A stretch of DNA of 64,000 nucleotides from contig CM075101.1 in assembly GCA_037576195.1 (NCBI GenBank), positions 18,600,001 to 18,664,000 on the forward strand, given 5' to 3'. Positions within the stretch are counted from its first letter, which is position 1; every line of letters starts with the position of its first letter. A program made the translations under genes and the position numbers. Below the pieces are notes generated by a model, which saw only the letters and a program-made list of their open reading frames with translations, searched no databases and was not told the DNA's origin. This DNA is from Phytoseiulus persimilis. Taxonomy: Eukaryota; Arthropoda; Arachnida; Mesostigmata; Phytoseiidae. This document shows, piece after piece, positions 3,623-32,387 of this stretch.

Positions 3623-4151
3623 TGTTCAGCCCCAGAACACCTCCCATTCGTTGACCCGCATAACCGCATCGGGTATCCACGAGGCGACAGAGAGGAGCAC
3701 CAAGAGGGAAAACATCTCCTGCATCCCTTGCGCCTTTCCGGCTCGAGCGGCCACGCACGAATTTCGATGCGATCGAATCCCCACGTCACTCGTCTGATGG
3801 CTCCGTCAAGCAATCCAGTCAGAACTTGATTCACGCGCAATCTCGACCGTTTCCCGGCGATCAATCCGCGAGCTGGACCTGGGTGCATCTATTATATTTC
3901 GAGAGCAAACATTCGTAAGGCACTGTCTTTGGGTACGTGAGGAATGGGAAGTTTCTGCCCTTCGGCTAGACAAGAAGGACACCGGAGTTCTTGCCTCGTA
4001 CTCGTGTTGTGTCGCACACACTTCTTTCCATCTTTTATTCCAATATAACTCCTCTCCACTGCCGCCGTGGCGGGCTCCTCAAAACGGGGTGATGCGCGCG
4101 TGATTCTTTCTGGCCCTGACACATTCGGACCACTGGAATCAGAGAAGAGAG

Positions 4152-4156
<5 letters not shown>

Positions 4157-4220
<64 letters not shown>
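4157..4220 (+). repeat. (GA)32 microsatellite
   Basis: Sixty-four uninterrupted bases of GA, flanked by imperfect GA-rich sequence on both sides (about 4141-4232). This is the longest simple dinucleotide repeat in the window and is likely length-polymorphic. Protein readings across it (Glu-Arg or Leu-Ser repeats) are artefacts. Confidence 0.98.
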
Positions 4221-4225
<5 letters not shown>

Positions 4226-4232
4226 GGAGAGA

Positions 4233-5374
4233 GTCGCTGGCCGAGCAGTAGGAAATGTCTCGTGTTTTGTCGTCAACATTTTTCAGGATCCGATCCATTT
4301 CAAATCCGGAAATATAGTCGGATAGGAACTATACTTGCCCCTCTCTGCACACTCCATATCTGGCGAAGTCTTCGGTCTCGAAAATAGTGTCGATGCGGAA
4401 CCACACGTACGCGAGAGAAGAAGTCACCGCCATACAAAATTTGAGGGCTTTTCGAACACGGTGAAGAGGTGCTGTTGACGGAGTCGCGGCTCGATAAGAA
4501 TCGTCTGCAGCCGACTGGAACTCTTCTGCCGATCAGATCGACCGGTTTCTGAACCGCTCGAAGTCTCGTTCCGGATCTCCACTGCCGAGCTCACTCCCTT
4601 GATCGGTTGAACATTCAAAATGAACTGGTCGGATGTTGTATGGCTAACGAAGGATCAGTGGCCCATGGGCGCAGGTATCAGTGATCGTGCGACGAGACAC
4701 TTTAATGAAGCAGTCACAATAGAGGAAGTTAATTGGGGGACGTCAAATGACGCGAAGGAGCTCCCATGGATCTTTCCGCCGGAACAAGAGACTTTTCTAT
4801 TGCGTTCTCGACCGAATTCTCCGACTCCTCCAGAATCACCCAGAGCCTTTGTGTTGCTTCGGAATCCGTGTGCAAGTGGCTTGCCGGGATGAGGGAGTTG
4901 AAGGTTTCGGGTGGCACGGGGCCTTCGCTCTGGACATCCATCCGATCGACTCACTAAGTGGCCGACAACAGGTGCACAGGAAACGAACGCCTGTTAAGTC
5001 AAAAATGTATCTACCTCTGTCCATTCGACTGCCAGTTCATTTGTCTGTCCGCGAGTATGTCCGACTGCGAGTCTGAAGTGAGGGTGATTCTCCGCTGTCC
5101 AACAACGGCAGAGGTCACTAAACTGATGAATGACACGGCTCACTCGCCCGACTGTCGCTATTGTCTCATCCACAGTTCGCCGGATAAATCTGGTCGGCAA
5201 CTACTAACCTGAGAGACTGGATGGACTGCTGAATAGAATTGAAACCGGCCGCGTCGCAGCTTCCAACGGCCCGCTGAACTAAGGTCACAAAATGAGTCAG
5301 TCGAGCACGCCGTCGAAGGCGATAGAGGGACCTGGGGTTTCAGACGACCAGGACCTCTGCCAGCGACGTACCGC
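4233..5374. other. No supported gene
   Basis: Overlapping frames of 60-110 codons occur on both strands between 4424 and 5212, none with convincing splice context. No RNA gene or transposon end was seen. Confidence 0.35.
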
Positions 5375-31546: not shown

Positions 31547-31554
31547 GATTGTAC
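31547..31554 (+). repeat. Target-site duplication, left (GATTGTAC)
   Basis: Eight bases immediately left of the hAT-type element, identical to 32380-32387. Confidence 0.88.
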
Positions 31555-31834
31555 CAGAGTTGGGCAGATTCGAATCACTTTCGATTCGAATCAAGTTGAT
31601 TCGAATCACCTGATTCGAATCGAGAAACATCGAATCAAAAGTGATTCGAATCAAAAACCGTCGAATCAGGCTGATTCGAATCAAAAGTGATTCGAATCAT
31701 TTTGATTCGAATCAGGATCGATCATCTGATTCGAATCACACGATTCGAATCACTCTGATTCGAATCAGAAAATGATTCGAATCAAAATTTGATTCGAATC
31801 AAAGTTTGATTCGAATCATTTTCTGATTCGAATC

Positions 31835-32089
31835 CTTACTACATATACTCGGCTTAGTCCGGGACCAGTCTGACCATACTTTTCAAAAGCTGGAGGGGTG
31901 ATTCCGAGACCAATCTGAGCATTACTTCCCAGTTGTTCCCAGAGTTGGGAAGTAATGCTCAGATTGGTCACGGAATCACCCCTCCAGAGTTGGGAAGTAA
32001 TGGCCAGATTGGTCTCGGAATCACCCCTCCAGAGTTGGAAAGTAATGTGCGGACAAACTGACAAACTAAGCCGATCATATATAGTAGGG
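31835..32089. mobile_element. Nested TIR insertion inside the hAT-type element
   Basis: The centre of the larger element has its own imperfect inverted ends: CTTACTACATATACTCGGCT on the left and, on the right, the complement of CTACTATATATGATCGGCTT. Both ends lie at a TA next to the GATTCGAATC arrays, as expected for a Tc1/mariner-like TA duplication, though this could be chance. Inside are a hairpin (31890-31931 with 31946-31987) and tandem 45-bp units. This is a separate insertion, or else the original core of the outer element. Confidence 0.5.
31941..32045 (+). repeat. 45-bp tandem repeat, 2.3 copies
   Basis: Units start at 31941, 31986 and 32031 with AGAGTTGGGAAGTAATG (the third reads AGAGTTGGAAAGTAATG). 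The first unit is also the right arm of a hairpin with 31890-31931. Each unit with its preceding C reads CAGAGTTGGG, identical to the outer element's terminus. Confidence 0.85.
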
Positions 32090-32379
32090 ATTCGAATCAG
32101 AAAATGATTCGAATCAGAACATGATTCGAATCCTCTGGTTCGAATCAAAAATGATTCGAATCAGGATCATCGAATCACTTGATTCGAATCAGAAATGATT
32201 CGAATCAGGATGATTCGACTCAGAAGCTATCGAATCACGTGATTCGAATCAAAAATGATTCGAATCATTTTGATTCGAATCAGGACGATTCGAATCACAT
32301 CTGATCCGATCTGATTCGAATCCAATGATTCGAATCAGAGGAGATTCGAATCAAAATGATTCGAATCTGCCCAACTCTG

Positions 32380-32387
32380 GATTGTAC
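32380..32387 (+). repeat. Target-site duplication, right (GATTGTAC)
   Basis: Identical to 31547-31554. Confidence 0.88.

Follow-up and report, generated by a model that had tools for sequence, protein, structure and literature searches.

The 64-kb stretch of DNA analysed here (the window) contains at 31555-32379 an apparently non-coding, small hAT-type miniature DNA element, whose two arms are arrays of the palindrome TGATTCGAATCA. We consider it probable that the element derives from a transposase-bearing family and that its palindromes are both sites for pairs of BED domains and joints for recombination. The element is filed as a hAT-derived miniature with hypertrophied palindromic subterminal repeats.

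The window element is bounded by a perfect 23-bp terminal inverted repeat (TIR; 31555-31577 on the plus strand, 32357-32379 on the minus strand) and flanked by exact 8-bp target site duplications (TSDs), GATTGTAC, at 31547-31554 and 32380-32387. The left TIR consists of the 12-bp end CAGAGTTGGGCA and the first palindrome. At both ends, the first palindrome abuts the 12-bp end; it occupies bp 13-22 and is centred at 17.5. The left array (31567-31834) contains 15 perfect 8-bp cores and the right array (32089-32367) 14. Between the arrays lie an inner inverted repeat and stretches of a 45-bp repeat, which has inverted orientation on the left side and direct orientation on the right. The copies of the inner inverted repeat pair with each other, the left one containing ACTACATATACTCGGCTTAG (31835-31858) and the right one CTAAGCCGATCATATATAGTAGG (32065-32088); its CGGCTTAG recurs in the loci L078, L079, L070, L080 and L009. 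The inverted stretch of the 45-bp repeat (31858-31931, minus strand; element positions 304-377) matches the 45-bp units of locus L040 on the minus strand. The direct stretch (31939-32047, plus strand) has 2.4 units of CCAGAGTTGGGAAGTAATG..., identified by TRF and a genome count, and is a genome-wide satellite as well. No stop-to-stop frame of at least 180 amino acids overlaps the element at 31555-32379. Folded as a single strand, the element forms one hairpin over nearly its whole length with -301.2 kcal/mol, versus a mean of -112.4 kcal/mol for 20 shuffles, in agreement with the internal folding of the arms proposed in an earlier note on this DNA. Elsewhere in the window, an (AG)n run of 47 units is located at 4141-4233.

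The source genome (181 Mb, 127 contigs) was searched for further copies. The first 21 bp of the element have 107 exact copies genome-wide and the reversed control has none. The 100 exact ends listed were grouped into at least 64 loci, part of which were read. Other copies with the same boundaries, on which the earlier note had made its interpretation depend, thus exist. Complete hAT members have short terminal inverted repeats and a whole length of 2.5-5 kb. The TIR here has 23 bp, and copies with two exact ends, present at 36 of the 64 loci listed, are 60-1441 bp long (median 687.5 bp). The element has the features of a miniature inverted-repeat element: multiple copies, ends common to transposase-bearing relics and, for the window element, the lack of a frame of at least 180 amino acids.

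An 8-bp duplication, for which the earlier note wanted other copies checked, flanks most copies. In 22 of the copies read, both 12-bp ends are exact; of these, 19 have a perfect TSD, two a TSD with one mismatch and one a TSD with two mismatches. A further 14 loci had a single exact end; seven of them gained a second end that was chosen with the help of the TSD, so these are not independent tests. The other seven (L023, L071, L073, L075, L076, L078 and L079), in which a second end was not found, and the decayed copy L091 were left out of the count. Flanks compared across elements, among 29 copies, matched perfectly in none of 812 pairs. The symmetrised target of 28 copies has a T at position 2 and an A at position 7 in 41 of 56 sites; at the middle positions, T at 4 and A at 5 occur in 19 of 56 sites each. 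The consensus nTnnnnAn is as in Ac-type hAT elements, for the hAT Ac group has this target motif. Ac and Buster differ in target choice, according to the part of the source available (PMC3942097). TSD, ends and target consensus identify a hAT-type insertion and uphold this part of the earlier interpretation. The window copy and copy L002 differ in two of 813 aligned bases and have different TSDs; the element has therefore probably moved recently, judging from these sequences.

The arms are dominated by the palindrome. All 18 matches of the perfect 12-bp TGATTCGAATCA in the 64-kb window are located in the element, compared with a mean of 0.04 and a largest value of 1 in 100 shuffles of the window. 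Likewise, all 29 perfect copies of the 10-bp GATTCGAATC and 29 of 30 occurrences of ATTCGAAT lie inside it. The earlier count of about 27 perfect cores thus needs a small correction to 18 perfect 12-bp and 29 perfect 10-bp palindromes. Of the left array, 71% is core or half-site sequence, and of the right array 70%. The spacing between core starts within the arrays is mostly 14-17 bp, more regular than previously described; the remaining distances are 24-31 or 44 bp.

Cores and spacers behave differently. The 31 cores of the window element have a mean pairwise identity of 0.936, a value inflated by their selection for similarity (at most three mismatches), and the inner 8-mer is perfect in 29 of the 31. 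Inside the element, equally long spacers are 0.333 identical, versus 0.331 expected from composition. Because the spacers are at composition level and the cores nearly identical, the arms give the impression of numerous separate binding sites. The simplest reason for the constancy of the cores is sequence-specific binding, for which they are candidates; alternatively, gene conversion may have acted on the cores alone. Different copies have spacer words in common, and in the same order: the spacers mark descent while the cores stayed alike. Of 16 index-matched spacer pairs from the left and right arms, 0 are complementary, and the longest word order that both arms have in common is two words, a length that 255 of 500 shuffles also reached; neither arm is therefore a reverse copy of the other.

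Genome-wide, the 12-bp palindrome occurs 715 times versus three times for its reversed control. Of the first 50 places listed, 35 are in copies with an exact end, 10 in the decayed copy L091 and five are unplaced. L091 (C1:2706040-2706520) has an array step of 26-29 bp over long stretches, other spacers and an altered right end, and is perhaps a distinct subfamily.

The arrays differ strongly between copies, as the earlier note had suspected: 29 copies have from 2 to 29 perfect 8-bp cores. With spacers treated as words, comparison of these copies yields 389 steps in order, 93 unit skips and 62 segments left without a place, the last including point-mutated cores, imported blocks and off-register indels (e.g., in L033 and L020). 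After omission of two terminal-copy polymorphisms, which reduces the steps from 93 to 73 and their kinds from 49 to 47, the 73 unit-skipping steps of 47 kinds retain a core or half-site at the joint; tokenising sees only joints of this type, and steps inherited together do not count as independent. In 58 of the 73 steps, the joint retains a palindrome at least 10 bp long. Whole palindrome units have often been lost and occasionally gained, imported or inverted; such unit-precise change is frequent, not exclusive. L008 lacks the entire left array, and its end runs directly into the centre, with the joint inside one core. Inspection by eye revealed gaaaa units in series in L012, a doubled caa in L003, a block of the right arm within the left arm in L007 and L018, a block of the left arm within the right arm in L005 and inverted units in L009 and L031.

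Two further observations concern the arms of single copies. TGATCA sites in L009, L033 and L077 look by eye like palindromes that lack the central 6 bp, resembling the product expected from a deletion at the centre of a hairpin. In L037, about 279 bp have been inserted into the right arm; this sequence has a tRNA-like head (GGTTCGATCCCCGGCC) and lies between repeated copies of agaagctaTCGAATCA. It is possibly a SINE; ARAGORN found no tRNA in L037.

Relics with transposase frames carry the same end. L078 (C4:1744320, minus strand) has, from the end inwards, nine 8-bp cores, 13 inverted 45-bp units, at about 1.2 kb a zinc-finger frame, and then a frame of 340 amino acids. The four best PDB matches of the 340-aa frame (E 0.0011-0.0025) are over the catalytic region. 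Two are chains of the Hermes transposase and two are named only transposase, which we take to be Hermes as well. A Pfam search with this frame had no match, and the weak PDB match points to a Hermes-like catalytic region. The D of the VTD motif, present in Hermes, L075 and L071, is replaced by N in L078. For the zinc-finger frame, the best Pfam family is a C2H2 family (16.9 bits, cut-off 27, E 0.0048), followed by zf-BED (16.5 bits, cut-off 20.6, E 0.009); a BED finger is possible.

A C-terminal frame of 403 amino acids in L075 (C3:24198092, minus strand) points at its end. It matches hATC (PF05699) with 15.5 bits, below the cut-off of 21.4 (E 0.015); a PDB search with it found no transposase, the best match being Atg5 (E 0.71). 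A genome-wide search with this frame detected three other places at 70% identity or more. C4:1740813-1742017 is L078 and C3:15227541-15228232 is L071, each with its near edge 2.3 kb inside an exact end; C3:23225499-23226709 has none of the listed ends nearby. About 0.15% of the genome lies within 2.5 kb inside an exact end. L075 and L078 were first spotted by reading inward from ends, prior to the genome-wide frame search. Matches of the zinc-finger frame adjoin all four places. The earlier note envisaged an autonomous relative with the same end; transposase-bearing relatives with this end exist, but all four close relatives, read without introns, have stops or frame breaks. L070 (1441 bp, perfect TSD) and L075 have a stretch of 508 bp in common at 94.5%, as would be expected of a form midway from partner to miniature copy. 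Among the listed relatives, the longest frame that is open has 722 amino acids (C1:9073853-9075856); it is about 50% identical over the C-terminal part and could be a present source of transposase. No P-type family was among the Pfam and PDB matches of the partner frames; by transposase type, the family appears to lie outside the Foldback/Galileo group of the P superfamily.

The centre connects the element with an abundant genomic satellite. A 26-mer of the 45-bp repeat (window 31977-32002) has 6,872 exact occurrences genome-wide, 3,596 on the plus and 3,276 on the minus strand, and none for the reversed control. Within the 100 places listed, the longest arrays extend over about 10 kb (e.g., C1:165231-174934). 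These first 100 places are all on the plus strand and form several separate clusters in C1:0.165-2.017 Mb; a variant of the repeat forms minus-strand clusters further along. In the stretches read, L075 has 12 units, L078 13 and the long end-bearing locus L079 30. The 45-bp unit starts with CAGAGTTGGG, the first ten of the twelve transposon end bases. In L023, from C1:18128808, a palindrome arm and 45-bp units continue in frame into a frame that presumably resembles a LINE-type reverse transcriptase.

In the mechanism we propose, the small element arose from the transposase-bearing family by internal deletion, an origin that stands alongside the observed sharing of the end, the palindromes and the 45-bp centre between element and transposase relics. 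Each TGATTCGAATCA would serve as a subterminal repeat to which two BED fingers of the transposase bind as a pair, and both arms would form long ladders of paired sites that recruit the transposase. The transposase would then cut at CAG/CTG and insert the element with an 8-bp duplication. The palindrome may serve both for binding and as a joint for recombination. When the excision gap is repaired, slippage or template switching could re-join any two units in either orientation with the site intact, because every unit is self-complementary.

A paired BED-domain site is the best reading of the palindrome, a putative assignment drawn from its position, its sequence constancy and the analogy to Hermes. 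In the part of the Hermes study available (PMC10368747), two BED fingers cooperatively bind the STR1-STR2 quasi-palindrome at bp 11-27 of the left end; its centre, computed from these positions, is bp 19, compared with 17.5 here. Several points count against the proposed mechanism. Gene conversion from core to core could hold the cores alike without selection, the Hermes sites need precise phasing according to the same text, whereas the copies here have 2 to 29 cores, and the Pfam and PDB matches of the partner frames are weak. A perfect palindrome would also suit any homodimeric factor, and the link between palindrome and transposase is putative. The palindromes may be acquired sites of a host DNA-binding protein (a transcription factor, insulator or replication factor), with transposition needing only the 12-bp end. 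This is improbable in view of the 715 genome-wide occurrences versus three for the reversed control, with no widespread host site among the first 50 places listed, and of the first palindrome abutting the 12-bp end on both sides, at the place of the BED site in the available account of Hermes.

The hairpin energy of the window element, far below the mean of its shuffles, would fit arms acting by structure alone, where hairpin extrusion or foldback favours slippage or strand transfer and the sequence is irrelevant. Self-complementarity would suffice for this, yet one 10-bp core recurs 29 times and the spacers of one arm do not complement those of the other; we regard a purely structural role as distinctly unlikely. 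Even less credible is a passive tandem satellite that grew by slippage and has no role in transposition. The arms are repetitive and variable in copy number, and gene conversion restricted to cores could give the same pattern without selection, but tandem duplication would copy spacers and cores together and only the cores are nearly identical. The earlier suggestion of subterminal repeats turned into satellite-like arrays, if taken as tandem duplication, is not supported by the same comparison. The palindrome is also far below satellite numbers genome-wide; the true satellite link is the central 45-bp repeat, of which the earlier note makes no mention.

The preferred reading as binding sites and joints can be extended. 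Tentatively, and with considerable doubt, the palindrome could be a built-in joint through which the ends evolve as shuffled modules, while the inner repeat, with ten bases of the transposon end at its start, escaped as a satellite whose units act as decoy ends. Any order and orientation of units would still give a working site, because a unit is its own reverse complement. With the 45-bp repeat, the interior of a hAT element may have supplied a satellite. The spacers are bar codes, and the joints reveal the rebuilding of transposon ends. The 29 copies offer a natural dose series, from 2 to 29 cores, for the subterminal sites that a hAT transposase needs. According to the available text (PMC10368747), truncated ends of Hermes, Ac and Tol2 have been used to study this question of site number.

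Subterminal repeats of transposase sites in hAT elements (Ac, Herves and Hermes) and variable repetitive ends in Galileo are already known; the comparisons here refer to the available parts of the sources. The element resembles Hermes, a housefly hAT, in the weakly matching catalytic region, a palindromic site just inside the TIR and many sites further inward; Hermes has 17 AAG(T/C) motifs on the left and 14 on the right (PMC10368747). Unlike the single quasi-palindrome at the left tip and one palindromic pair far inside in Hermes, up to 29 near-perfect palindromes are present here and both ends are dense. With Ac/Ds of maize, it shares the 8-bp TSD, subterminal motifs bound by transposase and non-autonomous deletion derivatives (Ds) (PMC3260210), and with Herves the subterminal motif repeats bound by transposase (PMC3143072); binding is putative here in both comparisons. 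The Herves motif C(G/A)ATTCAT and the half-site have GATTC in common, which may be a lead. The motifs of Ac/Ds and Herves have 6-8 bp, and palindrome arrays and unit shuffling are not described in the parts available (PMC3260210, PMC3143072). Galileo and Foldback-like elements have long, internally repetitive, length-variable ends, and their arrays were proposed as secondary transposase sites (PMC3573991). Galileo differs by its P superfamily membership and, in the F group, a repeated region of about 210 bp in up to three copies (PMC3573991); the present element has a 12-bp palindrome with unrelated spacers, and its TSD and transposase point to hAT. A literature search, with most subscription journals outside it, found no hAT family with dense long-palindrome arms and unit shuffling. 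An exact-sequence literature search matched one paper, through a single 12-mer; judging by its title, this paper is unrelated.

Several other candidates for a transposase partner were rejected. Near C3:23465080, a hAT frame is located 2 kb off and apparently belongs to another family that begins with CAGGGGTGGGCAA (by eye); the copy itself is a 154-bp element with its own TSD. C2:11127731 has an end-like 13-mer without family sequence behind it. None of the 30 loci with hAT frames L039-L068 has an exact end, and the 45-bp repeats of L040 are outside the part common with L039. In a PF05699 profile search, with 150 of 444 candidates scored, the partner was not among the matches. The matches included five open frames of 647 amino acids (C1:34723098, C3:12964062, C3:17510684, C3:29332262 and C1:3964261), which are perhaps one recently active family because their scores are near-equal. 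The frame near L089, which matches PF05699 over the span of these five frames, begins with CAGGGGTGGGCAA.
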